37,672 bases of DNA from an uncultured Lachnospiraceae bacterium. Its GTDB lineage: Bacteria; Bacillota; Clostridia; Lachnospirales; Lachnospiraceae. Positions 1 to 37,600 of the stretch are shown here, piece after piece (position 1 is the first letter of the stretch; each line of letters begins with the position of its first letter). Under the pieces are notes generated by a model. The model was not told the DNA's origin, made no database searches, and worked only from the letters and a program-made list of their open reading frames with translations. The stretch spans positions 1 through 37,672 of the forward strand of contig CANOFW010000030.1 of the NCBI GenBank assembly GCA_947565425.1, in the 5' to 3' direction. Both the position numbers and the translations under genes were made by a program.

Positions 1-3000
1 GCCTCGAAAGAGGAAGCCACAGAGCCGGAGAAGAGCGCAGCCTCGAAAGAGGAAGATACAAAGTCACAGGAAAGTATAGAGACTGAGCAAGAAAGCAAAG
101 AGTCAAAAGACAGCGATAATACCTCAAAGGCAGCAAAAGACAGCGATAACGCGGCGACTGATACGAACGTTGACGGTTATGTCAGCTTAGCGGAATTAAA
201 GGAGCAAAAAACCGGCCTTCCGACAAGAGAAGTTACAAAGGGTGAGAGTGATCCGCAGAGTTTTGTCAATAATGCTGTGAATGAGATGGTTCCGGATGCA
301 ATGAGCGGGCTTGATGCGTCCGCCAAGGTAAAGGTTACGTTCGCCCCTGGCGAAAATGAGAAGCAGATCAAGTTCCGCATCAAGGATGACGATAAGCCAG
401 AGGGGCAGGAGGCGTTTACGCTTCTTTTGACAGACCCTGAAAATGCGGAGGTTTATCAGGTGACGTCGCTTTCTGTGATCATTGAGGACGATGAGCAGAC
501 GGAACGCTCGAAGGTATCCTTCACGCAACCGGAGTACGTTTCCGAGGATGGCAAGGCAGTCGTTACCATCAAGCGTGAAGGTGCGGAATATTCGATTGCG
601 GACCTTGAAATTCGCAGCAGTGGAGATACCGCAAAAGCCGGCGTGAATTATAATGAAGTCCATCAGGCGGTCGCTTTTGCGCCGTATGAAATGGAGAAGA
701 AGGTAGAGATCCCGGTTGCAGGCCAGGGCAGATTTGAGGTTGTGATGTCGGAGTTCGGCTCTTGCGAGGCGGGGGAGCTTACGCGCGCCACCATTTCGGT
801 GCAGGAAGACGCGGGCATACAGCCACAGTCGGATTCCGGCATACAGGCGCAGGCGGCCTCAAGCTTTGATATTTCAATTAATAGCAAGAATTACAGGGTT
901 GAGTATAATTGGGGGGATGCCAAAGGAAAAATTATGGATACGGCTTATAATCCCGCAGTCTGGGCAGGAGAATATTATTTCCCGACAGACGCGGCGCATG
1001 GTGGAATTTTCAGCTATGCGCATTGGGACGGAAACAAGCCCGGTGGGACAAGGAACAGCCACTATCAGCAGGACAATGGTTCTGATATGTCCCAAAATTA
1101 CGGCAAACTGTACTATTATGATTGGCGCACTACGAAAAAAGGTCGTGTTTGGACAGAATCATCGGAGGTTCCGGCGATTTATTACCGTTATGTAGCGCCG
1201 GACTGGGCAATGACCGCGAAAACGTATGGCGGACAGAGGTGCCAATTCCGTCTGCAGTCAACAAAATCAAGAAAGAGTTATGATACCACACAGGACGTGA
1301 CAGGCCAGTTTGACCGTACCCGCGACAAGGGTATAATTCAAATCGGCGATGAAACCAACCGTAATTCGGACGGTCTGTTTCGGATGTATGCATACTCCAT
1401 TGACCAGGAAAAAAATAAGACGCCGAAATCCTACTTGAACTTTTACGGTGCGGCGGCAATGTTTAAACGGTATGACGTAAGCTTAGAGGCGCCGGAAGGC
1501 AAGACGTTCCTTACGCCTACCGGCAAGACAGATCCGATTGAGCCGGTGCAGGCAGAAGTAAAGTGCGGCGCACAGCTCTTATACCAGCATGAGAGTCGTG
1601 CAATCTATCCCAATCCCGAGACGTCCGGGTCTAATTTGGTATTTACGCTTAAAAGTTCGCATGTAAATGGACATGATGGGAAGTATGGCTCCCTCAGCGG
1701 ATACAAAATCACCGTAGGGACCGGCGGAAACAATGCTACGACTTTAAATTATCCGAAGGATTTTATTTCCTTTTTGAATAGCCGCAAAAATAGTACAAAG
1801 GGTTACATTGATTATGGAAAAAAGGCTGTCGAGAACGAAATTAATAGAATAAATAAGAATCTTGATACGATACCCTTCGACTGTTACTTTATTGACTGGA
1901 TTGAAAGCGAGCAGGTAAATACCAGCTCGGATGGCAACAGCTATAAGCAACTGCTGAAATTCAAGCCGATTTATAATTATAATGACGTTAAGGTGAATGT
2001 TCTTGCAGCCAGAGGCGGCAGTGGGCAATTTAAGAACAGCCAGCTTCAGGCAGGAAGGAAAGTAACGTTTCATGCAGGCGATCTGCTTGACCTTTCCATG
2101 ACGCCTGGCGATTCTATGACCCGTGTGGCGGGTTATGACGTATCCACGGACGGCGGCCAACATTTTGATACGGTTACAAGCACAAGCTCCCTGTTTTTGG
2201 AATCATCCACTGAATATACGATTCGTCCTGTATTTGAGAAAGACGAGAACCATATTGAGATTATTTTTGCAGACGATACGGCAAGGAACAATCTGAAAGT
2301 GGAAGAAACCATTCCGCAAAGCGAATTAATTTCTAACAGCCTGTTTCGGGGACGCACGATACTGAATTTAAATCCCCAAGCGTCGACGGTGCAGGGGAAG
2401 ATGAAACCGACGGTAGGTCAGGATTACACCGTCAGGATCAAGGTGACGGGAAAGCCAAAACGGGCAGGGTATGTCTACCGTCCGGTGATTAAAGATAATA
2501 TGACGGGGCAGAGCTACAATACCCAGACATACTACATGAATGCCAGATCAAGGAAGGAAGATAATACGCTGACAGTTTCGGTGGTAGAAGTAAAGGAATC
2601 GGAGCTTCGCAATTATACGGTGGAGGGCAATGTGGTAAGCGCCATAAAGCCAATTTTAGACGACGGGCAGGCATTAAAGGAGCTGCCGGTAGCGAATATG
2701 TCTGTTATGGTCGGACAGGGGCAGGATGCGAGTGGTACAGTGACTGCCGTTGCCGCGCAAACAGACTCCAACGGTGAATACAGCTTAATGGATGTGAAAG
2801 GCATGCCCAATGACAGGATTCCAGTTCTGATTTCAAACGGCATAGGGCGGGGGCAGATCGCAGAAATCGTTCTGCCGGATGTAAGCGCCGGGCAGGACGG
2901 CGTGTGCCATGCCAACATCGGCAAACTAACCATGAAGTATCCTTCGGGGATTCCCAAGGTTACCGATATCAGCTATAATTACAACAATGCCGCGAATAAC

Positions 3001-8307: not shown

Positions 8308-8421
8308 GGAAGAACCCTGATGCCACGTGCTGGGTTCAAAGAAGTAGAAAGGGAGGAGCCCTGATGCCTCTAATCGTAGCCAAAGAAGTAAATCGAAGCT
8401 GGGAGGATGCCTTAGGGCTGG
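8308..8421 (+). repeat. Degenerate tandem repeat, nrdR-yqeG gap
   Basis: About two and a half copies of a 43-50 nt unit of the form GGGAGGAGCCCTGATGCCTC...GGGTTCAAAGAAGTAGA fill most of this gap: 8308-8350 (diverged), 8351-8400 and the partial 8401-8421. The same unit recurs at 10130-10200. Each copy can form a small hairpin in which GAACCC or GAGCCC pairs with GGGTTC. The first copy contains a perfect GAACCC/GGGTTC pair around a 14-nt loop. Confidence 0.75.
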
Positions 8422-10084: not shown

Positions 10085-10200
10085 ATGGCATGAGTGGGGA
10101 CCAATGGCATGAGGAGGGACCCACGAAGTGGGAGGAGCCCTGATGCCTCTTATCGGGTTCAAAGAAGTAGAGAGGGAGGAGCCCTGATGCCTCTTACTGG
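10085..10200 (+). repeat. Tandem repeats downstream of efp
   Basis: Two direct copies of a 19-nt unit starting ATGGCATGAG (10085-10103 and 10104-10122) are followed by a CCCAC/GTGGG hairpin. Next come one full copy (10130-10173) and one partial copy (10174-10200) of the unit GGGAGGAGCCCTGATGCCTC also found in the nrdR-yqeG gap. With the terminator and element A, this explains the 368-nt gap before the next gene. Confidence 0.75.
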
Positions 10201-10226
10201 TCCCATAGAATTTGAAATAGTATCCA

Positions 10227-10270: not shown

Positions 10271-10272
10271 AT

Positions 10273-10352
10273 GGGGCTGTTGCACTAATATATTTACTCG
10301 TTCACTTTGTTTTCTTAGAGGATTTGGGAGCCAAAGTGTGCAAGATGTCTTG
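10273..10352 (+). repeat. Structured element, copy A (partial)
   Basis: The left end GGGGCTGTTGCACTAATATA followed by TTTACTCGTTCA matches the left ends of copies B and D. At 10338-10351 a 14-nt stretch (GTGCAAGATGTCTT) is identical to 13977-13990 inside copy C. The internal hairpins and right end are not recognisable, so this is a decayed or rearranged copy. It lies just upstream of the nucleotidyltransferase gene. Confidence 0.6.
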
Positions 10353-12530: not shown

Positions 12531-12544
12531 GTTTTTAATAATTT

Positions 12545-12690
12545 GGGACTGTCGTACTAATATATTTACTTGCTCAAAAGCTTTTGCTGCTTATGCGGCA
12601 AAGACGGAATGCATAAAAATCATTCTGCGAAGCGAGCTTCCTAAGTAAATTTCTATGCATGTTGTCCACAAATGTTTTACTAAATATAAT
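12545..12690 (+). repeat. Structured element, copy B (right end lost)
   Basis: Starts GGGACTGTCGTACTAATATA followed by TTTACTTGCTCAAAAG. Hairpin 1 pairs TTGCTGC (12584-12590) with GCGGCAA (12595-12601) around TTAT. The second hairpin begins at GCATAAAAAT and closes with AATTTCTATGC, with an inner GAAGC/GCTTC. A 17-nt stretch (GCTTATGCGGCAAAGAC) is shared with copy D. The third hairpin and right arm are missing; the right boundary is approximate. The galE promoter follows immediately. Confidence 0.7.
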
Positions 12691-13869: not shown

Positions 13870-14036
13870 AGGGCTATCGCATTTATATTATCTCGTTCAA
13901 AAGGTTTCTATCACAAAGTGCTGGAAACACTTTGCGCATAAAACGCTATGGAAAGCTAGCTTTCCATAGCGTTTTTGTGCAAGATGTCTTTGTTGCTTCT
14001 AGTAGCAAGACCTTTTGAACAAGACAATATAATCAG
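13870..14036. repeat. Structured element, copy C (complete), between convergent genes
   Basis: Lies between galE (+) and the HD-GYP gene (-), where it may act as a two-way terminator. Outer arms GTTCAAAAGGT (13895-13905) and ACCTTTTGAAC (14010-14020) pair perfectly and extend into A/T-rich ends. They enclose three hairpins: CAAAGTG/CACTTTG (13914-13934), a perfect 34-bp palindrome (13941-13974, centre GCTAGC), and TTGCT/AGCAA near 13992-14008. The layout equals that of copy D with different stem sequences. Confidence 0.78.
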
Positions 14037-23211: not shown

Positions 23212-24675
23212 ATGAGAAGATGCAGAAGAATAGGGTTTTGGGTTCTTGCAGTATGTTTAGTTCTGCTGTTGTCCGGGTGTAATTTTTCCTGGCAGGGGGG
23301 AGTATGGCAGCAAAGGCGTTATAATTTGGCAGGGTTAGGAAATGGTGTTTCGGCAGAAATTGAGGAAGCTAGATTGCTCAGAGCGATGAAGAAGAATCGC
23401 GCAGTGGATAAAAAGAATGATACAAAGTCCGAGATGACAGCGTTGGTGGAGGACATTTTAAAGAAAGCGACAAAGAAATTGTTGGGTAGTTATCCCGTGG
23501 ATGATGATTTTCTTTTGTGGCTGGCAGGAGAGTATGGCAGAGAAACGATTTCCGATTTACAGCAAGTAATAAGTGAAAAGCCCCAACGGATGGAGCAATG
23601 GTATCATATGACTGGCAAGTCTCTCCATGTGTTGTGGACAGAATATTGCCGTGAAAGCAACATACAGGAGCCTTTGTTGGAAAAGGTCTATGAGAAGGAA
23701 TGCGCAGAGCAAAATCAGGTAGTGATGGATTTTACAGGGGACATCAATCTTGCAGAAGGATCGTCGACGGCAAATTACCTGGATGGGCAGAGTGGTGGAA
23801 TTCGGGATTGTTTTTCAGATGAACTTTGGGAAGAAATGCAGTCGGTAGATATTTTGATGATAAACAATGAATTTACGTATAGCAGCCGGGGAACGCCATT
23901 GTCCGGGAAAGCGTATACATTTCGAGCGGACCCGGCGCGTATCAGCGCTGTCAAAGAGATGGGCACGGACATTTTATCGCTTGCCAATAACCATGTGTAT
24001 GATTATGGAGAAGAGGCGTTTTTGGATACCCTCGATACGGTTGCACAGGCAGAGATACCGTATGTGGGCGCGGGAAGGAATTTGCAGGAAGCAATGAAAC
24101 CAGTGTATTTTATTGCGAATGGCAGGAAGATTGCCATTGTATCTGCCACACAGATTGAACGCTCCACCAATTATACAAGGGAAGCGACAGACACTACGGC
24201 AGGCGTATTGAAGACGTTAAATCCGGACAAGTTCTTATCCGTAATTGAAAAAGCGCGGGCTTGCAGCGATTATGTAATCGCTTTTGTGCACTGGGGGACG
24301 GAGAATACGAATTATTATGGAAATGATCAGGTGAAGTTGGGGCAGCAATTTATTGATGCCGGCGCAGATGTTGTCATTGGCGGACATACGCATTGCCTTC
24401 AGGGGTTTGATTATTATAAGGGCAAACCGATCATCTACAGTCTTGGGAATTTTTGGTTTAATGGCAGAAGCCAGGATAGCGGGCTGTCTCAGTTGATAAT
24501 CCATACGGACAGTAATGAGATGGAATTTCGTTTCTTGCCCTGCAAGCAGAGAGGATGTGTAACATCTTTTGCCGGGAAAGGGGAGCGAGAACGAATTTTG
24601 CAATATATGCAGAAAATTTCAGCTTCCGGTGTCTCTGTCGGTGAAGATGGAATTATCGTAACTATTCAGCCTTAA
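23212..24675 (+). CDS. CapA-like lipoprotein (metallophosphoesterase fold)
   Basis: A 487-residue lipoprotein: the signal helix ends LLLSGC with lipidated C23. Residues about 30-165 are a charged region I do not recognise. The CapA/PgsA-type domain starts at DFTGDINLAEGSS and includes LANNHVYDYG, FVHWGTE, GGHTHCLQG and YSLGNFWFNG, metal-site motifs of this metallophosphoesterase-like fold. In Bacillus, CapA takes part in poly-gamma-glutamate export, but no capB/capC is nearby, so another surface-polymer role is possible. The last five codons and stop (GTAACTATTCAGCCTTAA) fall inside the left arm of a repeat. Confidence 0.85.
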   Translation: MRRCRRIGFWVLAVCLVLLLSGCNFSWQGGVWQQRRYNLAGLGNGVSAEIEEARLLRAMKKNRAVDKKNDTKSEMTALVEDILKKATKKLLGSYPVDDDFLLWLAGEYGRETISDLQQVISEKPQRMEQWYHMTGKSLHVLWTEYCRESNIQEPLLEKVYEKECAEQNQVVMDFTGDINLAEGSSTANYLDGQSGGIRDCFSDELWEEMQSVDILMINNEFTYSSRGTPLSGKAYTFRADPARISAVKEMGTDILSLANNHVYDYGEEAFLDTLDTVAQAEIPYVGAGRNLQEAMKPVYFIANGRKIAIVSATQIERSTNYTREATDTTAGVLKTLNPDKFLSVIEKARACSDYVIAFVHWGTENTNYYGNDQVKLGQQFIDAGADVVIGGHTHCLQGFDYYKGKPIIYSLGNFWFNGRSQDSGLSQLIIHTDSNEMEFRFLPCKQRGCVTSFAGKGERERILQYMQKISASGVSVGEDGIIVTIQP

Positions 24676-24732
24676 TTTTTATATAACAGTCCTATTCCAT
24701 AGAACTTTTTATACTGTTGTGCAAAAATGGGG
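24658..24732 (+). repeat. Second repeat family, left arm (overlaps capA-like stop)
   Basis: This arm and the inverted arm at 24916-24989 share a perfect 23-nt outer end (24658-24680) and an inner CTCCATAGAACTTTT-like block. A direct copy lies at 37526-37600. The arm includes the last codons and stop of the CapA-like gene. Confidence 0.75.
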
Positions 24733-24919
24733 CTGTAGCATTAATATATTTACTCGTTCAAAAGGTCTTGCCGCTTATGCGGCAAAGACAGAATGCACAA
24801 AAATCACTCTGGGAAGCTAGATTCCCAAGATAATTTTTGTGCATGTTGTTTACATTACGAAGCAATGCAAACCTTTTGAACGAATCATAACTTGTAATTT
24901 ATGTTAGTGCGACAACCCC
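24729..24919. repeat. Structured element, copy D (complete)
   Basis: Terminal GGGGCTGT and ACAACCCC ends are followed inward by CGTTCAAAAGG and CCTTTTGAACG. Three hairpins lie inside: TTGCCGC/GCGGCAA (24768-24785), a perfect 10-bp GCACAAAAAT/ATTTTTGTGC stem (24795-24804 with 24833-24842) topped by GGGAA/TTCCC, and GTTTACATT/AATGCAAAC (about 24848-24872). It is centred inside the inverted arms of the second repeat family and explains the 404-nt gap before gpmI. It codes for no protein. Confidence 0.8.
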
Positions 24920-24989
24920 ATTTTTATATTCTATAATGTAAAAGTTCTATGGAGTAAGGCTGTACAAAAAATTAAGGCTGAATAGTTAC
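24916..24989 (-). repeat. Second repeat family, right (inverted) arm
   Basis: Reverse complement of 24658-24732 with a few indels; the outer 23 nt are identical. Together the arms make a palindrome of about 330 bp that would fold strongly in RNA and probably separates the capA-like and gpmI transcripts. Confidence 0.75.
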
Positions 24990-25018
24990 GAATTATCACA
25001 GAAGTTCCATAGAGAGAG

Positions 25019-32528: not shown

Positions 32529-32627
32529 AGCACGAACGTAAATTACAAGCTATAGATTCGTTCAAAAGGTTTACATTGCGAAGCAATGCAAACCTTTTGA
32601 ACGAGTGTATTTATTAGAGAGACAGTG
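32529..32627. repeat. Structured element, copy E (short form)
   Basis: A 22-bp stem with one mismatch pairs 32558-32579 with 32583-32604 around a GAA loop. Bases 32579-32604 are identical to 24858-24883 of copy D. The flanks GCACGAACGTAAATTACAAG and GAACGAGTGTATTTATTAG resemble the inverted ends of D, so E looks like a copy that lost the first two hairpins. A further fragment (AAGGTTTTTGAACGAATTTT) follows near 32629-32650. It fills much of the 326-nt purB-eno gap; no convincing eno promoter was seen, only an isolated TATACT at 32720. Confidence 0.7.
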
Positions 32628-37525: not shown

Positions 37526-37600
37526 GTAACAGTTTAGCCTTAATTTTTATATAACAGCCTTATTCCATAGAACTTTTTATACTGTTGTGTAAAAATACTT
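37526..37600 (+). repeat. Second repeat family, direct copy after smpB
   Basis: Closely matches 24658-24728, including AGCCTTAATTTTTATATAAC and CCATAGAACTTTTTATACTG, and starts seven bases after the smpB stop. The flank then differs: CTTATGGGCA near 37599 and TGCCATAAG near 37643 form another small inverted repeat. Whether an inverted arm follows cannot be seen because the window ends at 37672. Confidence 0.75.

Follow-up and report, generated by a model that had tools for sequence, protein, structure and literature searches.

The region at positions 24658 to 24989 of the window (the whole 37,672-nucleotide stretch analyzed here, contig 30 in a draft genome of 3.36 Mb) is made of several nested things: an outer MITE that contains an inner IS1182-type MITE, which in turn contains a cloverleaf core. 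The shell, which is mobile, can be separated from the structured core, and the classification that suits the region best is that of an IS1182-type MITE inserted in another MITE and carrying a structured core family for which the libraries and papers searched gave no counterpart. We consider it quite probable that nested mobile DNA, transposition by replacement of stem-loops, and a constrained cloverleaf, most likely acting as folded DNA, together explain the region. An earlier note had recognized a 191-bp element at 24729 to 24919. The ends, outer stem, and three hairpins described there are present, and folding of positions 24725 to 24925 as DNA gave a z score of -10.3 relative to shuffled sequences (-20.1 for the whole nested region folded as RNA). 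The note had, however, taken the 191 bp as the outermost unit, and they lie within an element bearing its own target duplication. Since, in addition, cores were found without IS1182 ends, a reading based on a single MITE with a selected RNA was abandoned.

The outer MITE (24658 to 24989) is a 332-bp inverted-repeat element with GTAA ends (GTAACTATTCAGCC.../...GGCTGAATAGTTAC), flanked by an 8-bp duplication, GAATTATC, at 24650 to 24657 and 24990 to 24997 (both on the plus strand). In two relatives (G016 and G004), a single 8-bp copy (GAATTGTC) joins the two flanks directly, which constitutes an empty site, indicating that the outer element is an insertion. A GTAA end and an 8-bp target duplication are hallmarks of IS66, and, judged by its ends and by the length of the duplication, the outer element looks like an IS66-type MITE. 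This element altered the last codons of the upstream gene, whose open reading frame now stops at 24675, within the element end; an IS66-like MITE jumped into the 3' end of that gene, duplicating 8 bp. The stop codon and the last residues of the gene (24650 to 24675) are supplied by the MITE, and by eye the aligned sequence of G016 and G004 continues for a few codons to a different stop. Four further copies of the outer type were found in the genome (226 to 702 bp, varied interiors). Among the five copies, the 8-bp duplication is exact in two (the window copy and L127, AAGCATCC), conserved at 7 of 8 positions in one (L125), and absent from two (L126 and L128). Unlike what the label of IS66-type MITE would suggest, the interior of the central stem differs between these sister copies, the stretch within it ranging from 85 to 559 nt. 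A second MITE of the outer type, represented by its left end at 37526 to 37596 (plus strand), runs beyond the window; this copy departs from the MITE at 24658 at the start point of the inner element.

The outer element's AAAAAT and ATTTTT border the inner MITE (191 bp, 24729 to 24919; ends GGGGCTGTAGCATTAA and TTAGTGCGACAACCCC), which stands in place of the central stem-loop. The inner MITE is too short for a transposase gene and is overlapped by no listed open reading frame. Counting that of the window itself, 21 places in this genome scored at least 200 bits against the nested query. The end pattern GGGGCTGTNGCANTAA, with up to 2 mismatches, occurs 69 plus 52 times in the genome, versus 9 plus 11 times for a reversed-pattern control. 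Variants with both ends span 33 to 192 bp; the element exists in multiple copies whose ends are intact and whose interiors vary. The proposal of five related places in the window holds in that the element is multicopy, but the five are unequal and only that at 24729 is complete. The others comprise a left-end remnant followed by core-like relic sequence (10271 to 10304, plus strand), a truncated copy corresponding to the left 127 bp of the element with 83% identity (12544 to 12670, plus strand), a second complete cloverleaf (13894 to 14021, plus strand; model score, 120 bits) enclosed by decayed IS1182-like ends (GGGCTATCGCA from 13871), and a deletion derivative reduced to the outer stem and one hairpin (32529 to 32626, minus strand). 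Thus, the copies at 13870 and 24729 are both complete as cloverleaves, as had been claimed, but the ends of the former have decayed.

Copies in related genomes, which the earlier note had anticipated, were found: the 191-bp query matched 16 of 145 genomes, its own included, and 3 of 110 genera (E value of 0.001), and the left end of a longer element with the same first 16 bp was detected in 20 of the 145 genomes, again with its own, and 6 of the 110 genera. Full-length elements with the same 16-bp end are represented by two identical copies of 1,897 bp in G024 and by one of 1,888 bp in G013, all with an open transposase frame; G003 contains an internally deleted copy of 1,383 bp. The transposase of G024 matches the NCBIfam IS1182 model NF033551 (313.5 bits for a cut-off of 270). 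The full-length IS1182-family elements agree with the suggestion of a MITE-like element with GGGGCTGT ends, the ends of the window element having 2 and 1 mismatches over the 16 positions of the full-length left end. A PF13751 search did not find an IS1182 transposase in the window's own assembly. Four contigs of this genome break about 50 bp inside the IS left end, the pattern that collapse of a repeat would produce, and the transposase was therefore probably lost in assembly. An IS1182-family transposase would move the 191-bp MITE in trans. The core of this MITE is a cloverleaf that is found outside IS1182 ends as well.

The manner in which the inner MITE entered the outer one was analyzed by an insertion scan, which listed 64 candidate end pairs; a single locus among those retrieved could contribute more than one pair. 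For nine of these pairs, both flanks aligned to a known multicopy target family, so that readability is biased toward multicopy targets; insertions were compared with sister copies of the target rather than with ancestral sites. In eight of the nine, the lost target is one hairpin (off by a base in one, L022). Four insertions, L009 (G000) and L066, L079, and L235 (all G027), lack hairpin H1 of the cloverleaf over its 25 nt, foot to foot, with the insert on either strand of the target; L066 and L079 may be copies of one composite, and the H1 insertions may thus not all be independent. The H2 apex, GGGAAGCTAGATTCCC, was lost in L007, L022, and L027 (all in G000), L022 lacking 15 of the 16 nt. 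The window insertion has replaced the outer MITE's central stem-loop, the size of which is 85, 213, or 559 nt depending on the sister copy chosen. In the ninth insertion (L004), 67 nt are gone, corresponding to H1 and the first part of H2. No target duplication was seen in the nine readable insertions. Eight more loci could be placed on one flank only; by eye, the whole cloverleaf or everything above its outer stem is replaced in two of them (L141 and L244). Empty sites had been proposed as a check: they were recovered for the outer MITE, as described above, but the other four window copies gave no clean junction in comparison with G011, nor did that at 32529 in comparison with G004, and relatives provided no precise empty site in contig 1, where two sites were compared.

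Stem-loop-replacing transposition devoid of target duplication has been described for IS1272 (PMC5678879; PMC4923244). IS1272 and TnSha1 of staphylococci, which belong to the IS1182 family, share with the elements studied here the IS1182-family transposase, ends of about 16 bp, and hairpin targets of varied sequence that are wholly or partly lost without duplication. They differ in that the movers are here mostly gene-less, with a size of 33 to 192 bp, and in that the targets that could be read are hairpins belonging to other mobile elements, including those of the mover's own family. The mode of transposition is already known; we found no description of carriers without a gene, of self-nesting, or of the conserved cloverleaf. 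The footprint shows that the inner MITE replaced the outer MITE's central stem-loop, presumably by the reaction known from IS1272, and hairpins of the cloverleaf also serve as landing sites for IS1182-type elements. Such elements swap a hairpin for a hairpin, so that the region stays foldable while its letters change.

The cloverleaf core of the window (24755 to 24882, minus strand; about 128 nt; model score, 105 bits) consists of an outer stem and three hairpins, H1 (24848 to 24872), H2 (24793 to 24844, with the apex replaced in nested copies elsewhere), and H3 (24765 to 24789), all on the minus strand. The core at 13894 to 14021 has the opposite orientation: the two cloverleaves aligned with a score of 72 on the same strand and of 100 with one reversed. 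Hairpin 1 of one is therefore hairpin 3 of the other (H1 and H3 correspond to hairpins 3 and 1, respectively, of the earlier note for the copy at 24729), and the hairpin-by-hairpin comparison initially made between the two copies does not stand, the reported differences resulting in part from mispairing. The claim drawn from it, that structure is kept while sequence changes, nonetheless survives in an oriented alignment, in which compensatory changes are present.

This alignment (A1; 42 copies from eight genomes) displays a fixed plan: an outer stem CAAAAG/CTTTTG with an extension, an H1 of 11 bp, a long H2, an H3 of 11 bp, and two-base junctions. It contains 51 pairs, 18 of which changed on both sides, and 97.0% of the 2,086 cells are paired. 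None of 500 shuffles reached as high a value, and structures slid along the alignment paired in 38 to 49% of the cells. Same-branch co-changes on a 40-row tree numbered 29, of which 25 were compensatory, compared to a mean of 3.26 and a maximum of 10 in 1,000 reassignments and to 0 to 2 for slid partners. A strict tree-based test of all pairs (20 simulated alignments) returned a single significant column pair (E = 0.00), a second one at 0.10, and no pair outside the structure at an E value of 0.2. The check for covariation that had been suggested thus gave a positive result, with one pair significant in its strictest form. Of 30 diverse copies folded individually, 29, all but L143, formed an outer stem with three arms, the arm boundaries being shifted in five of them. 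Two other alignments had restricted uses: A2 includes opposite-strand rows and is for this reason unfit for model building, and A3 was used for individual folding only because MAFFT misplaces one outer-stem base in divergent copies. Together, these results show that the cloverleaf is a folded nucleic acid held by constraint on its stems.

Model R1, for which E values are rough, matched 18 of the 29 genomes of the genus, its own included, and none of the other 11. Matches per genome reached 110 in G027, 98 in G021, 71 in G000, and 64 in G013; one place may be counted on both strands because the element is quasi-palindromic. In a family-wide search with stricter filters (299 genomes, about one per genus), four genomes matched (G000, G021, G084, and G322), of which G084 and G322 belong to two other genera. 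Copies from these two and from G014, G005, G006, G009, and G026 have largely different stems for an unchanged plan; the low-scoring L316 (G322) folds otherwise.

The core forms a family distinct from the inner element that surrounds it. It is enclosed by IS1182 ends in the window and by a different shell, TTTGAGTTTCCCC, in G027, G013, G023, and G021, where several copies have apparent 8- to 10-bp duplications by eye; no clear shell is visible by eye in four of the five G004 copies. With up to 3 mismatches, the end pattern of the TTTGAGTTTCCCC shell was found 74 times in G027, 53 in G013, 22 in G023, and 26 in G021 and was not found in G024, G026, and G028. Two candidates for an autonomous partner of the TTTGAGTTTC shell, sought by end pattern, were set aside: that of G013 (1,524 bp, L254) reads N inside, and the spacing in G027 (L255) corresponds to two separate small elements plus other genes. 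By eye, L256 (G013 contig 4, 160150 to 160600) combines a TTTGAG shell with a core that has shrunk and an insert of unrelated sequence, which points to shells acquiring other DNA.

Pairwise differences among 39 copies amounted to 0.35 to 0.39 in the shells and 0.385 in the H1 and H3 loops, versus 0.018 in the H2 base, 0.038 in the junctions, and 0.044 in H3. Conservation is lower than at the H2 base in the H1 stem (0.153), upper H2 (0.152), and the outer stem (0.120), and the H2 apical loop (0.095) is itself conserved. Within G004, the flanks differed by 0.59 to 0.61, compared to 0.03 to 0.14 in the outer stem, H1, H3, and the H2 base. These differences indicate that the core is held while its surroundings drift, although the conservation could come from active source elements rather than from every copy. 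Palindromes can self-correct, and the structure might accordingly be a by-product, nested palindromes being kept symmetric by template switching or hairpin-templated repair in the absence of selection. Hairpin-for-hairpin swaps by IS1182-type elements likewise change letters and keep pairing. Self-correction does not explain why the H2 base, the H3 stem, and the junctions are nearly invariant next to changing H1 and H3 loops and shells, nor why the three-arm plan is constant in two other genera, and we regard a by-product as rather unlikely.

Gene context was compared at 39 loci (open reading frames of at least 100 amino acids): 26 lie between tandem genes, 10 between divergent genes, and 2 between convergent genes. 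A simple role in termination, in which H2 would be a bidirectional transcription terminator and this its sole selected function, was ranked low, and the rarity of the convergent context speaks against it. Such a role would fit the terminator-like matches on both strands at 24809 to 24828, the A-run before and the T-run after H2 in A1 copies, and the location of the 13870 copy of the window (L302) between convergent genes. The T-run is, however, missing from the divergent copies L281 (G014), L283 (G006), and L286 (G009), and H1, H3, and the outer stem also covary, making this possibility quite improbable.

Comparison of 41 loci by their flanking open reading frames revealed three neighborhoods that recur in different species. 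The first (G006, G026, and G005) places the cloverleaf between a gene of the amino-acid-kinase family and the pyruvate kinase gene with collinear flanks. At this locus (L283, L285, and L296, about 1501 to 1630), the core of G005 is inverted relative to those of G006 and G026, with scores of 161 and 177 in the core orientation versus 81 and 97 reversed. The second (G027 and G005) is located between the Cu/Zn superoxide dismutase and leucyl-tRNA synthetase genes and the third (G008 and G084) between a DUF6709 gene and a methyltransferase-Hsp33 pair; separate insertions are possible for these two. L275 (G003) and L277 (G001) have one gene in common, with the cloverleaf on different sides of it.

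Shared neighborhoods, covariation, conservation above that of the flanks, and the 26 tandem and 10 divergent contexts are also compatible with a noncoding RNA or RNA leader that MITEs dispersed and that was subsequently retained at some loci. The wobble pairs bear on this explanation. In A2, which was fitted to the structure, G-T cells outnumber A-C cells (64 versus 38 upon omission of one near-constant pair, 93 versus 38 with it). Counted as events on the modeled strand, single changes that break a Watson-Crick pair produced 22 G-T and 18 A-C combinations, a ratio unlike that expected from selection on an RNA of that strand; the probability of 22 or fewer among 40 is 0.005 if 75% were G-U, a value that is our own yardstick rather than a measured control. 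The opposite strand also fits the model, and the G005 core is inverted relative to its counterparts. Searches against Rfam gave no match at the gathering cut-off within the window, and in 15 loci no match over a core reached the gathering score (best E value there, 0.012). The core thus resembles Rfam structured RNA families by compensatory change around a fixed fold but differs from them by scores below every gathering threshold and by the lack of a clear strand-specific wobble signature at the level of events. We consider the RNA explanation unlikely, albeit deserving of weight.

Taken together, the wobble counts, the inversion in G005, and the insertions at hairpin feet favor folded DNA, and the cloverleaf most likely acts in this form, as a cruciform or a single strand. 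The folded DNA would be bound in either orientation by a transposase or a host protein. More tentatively, and as a possibility short of probable, the cloverleaf may be a DNA-level module of its own: a three-arm cruciform that is under selection whichever way it is oriented, travels in at least two unrelated MITE shells, persists at given loci once the shell has decayed, can invert in place, and offers IS1182-type elements landing hairpins whose footprints would show extrusion in the cell. BOX, ERIC, and REP are dispersed intergenic folding repeats and are similar in this respect; the cloverleaf differs from them by its four-way layout with two-base junctions and by its association with at least two mobile shells. 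Our literature search found no description of a cloverleaf MITE, of intergenic MITEs of Lachnospiraceae, of palindromic IS1182 MITEs, or of compensatory change in cruciform intergenic repeats.

The IS1272 footprint recurs in a distant group, where gene-less IS1182-type elements have left it repeatedly within other mobile elements. Its boundaries coincide with the feet of hairpins, and the footprint may therefore serve as a readout of the DNA hairpins that are formed in cells. Compensatory change, which is usually read as proof of an RNA, may here stem from folded DNA, and the genomes that carry dozens of cloverleaf copies offer material for testing DNA versus RNA.

Other repeats and signals were observed in the same sequences. 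Positions 8308 to 8387 and 10131 to 10210 of the window contain repeats of GGAGGAGCCCTGATGCCTCT units that are 81% identical; since like stretches match dozens of listed places in G011, G016, G004, G008, and G019, they represent another dispersed family. A repeat of about 160 bp (L176, 1397 to 1557; G000 contig 1) has many matches of about 70 to 93% in G011, G016, and G004. Finally, L222 contains at positions 10 to 205 (minus strand) a T-box leader-like match under the family cut-off (64.1 versus 93 bits; E value of 2.2e-12).
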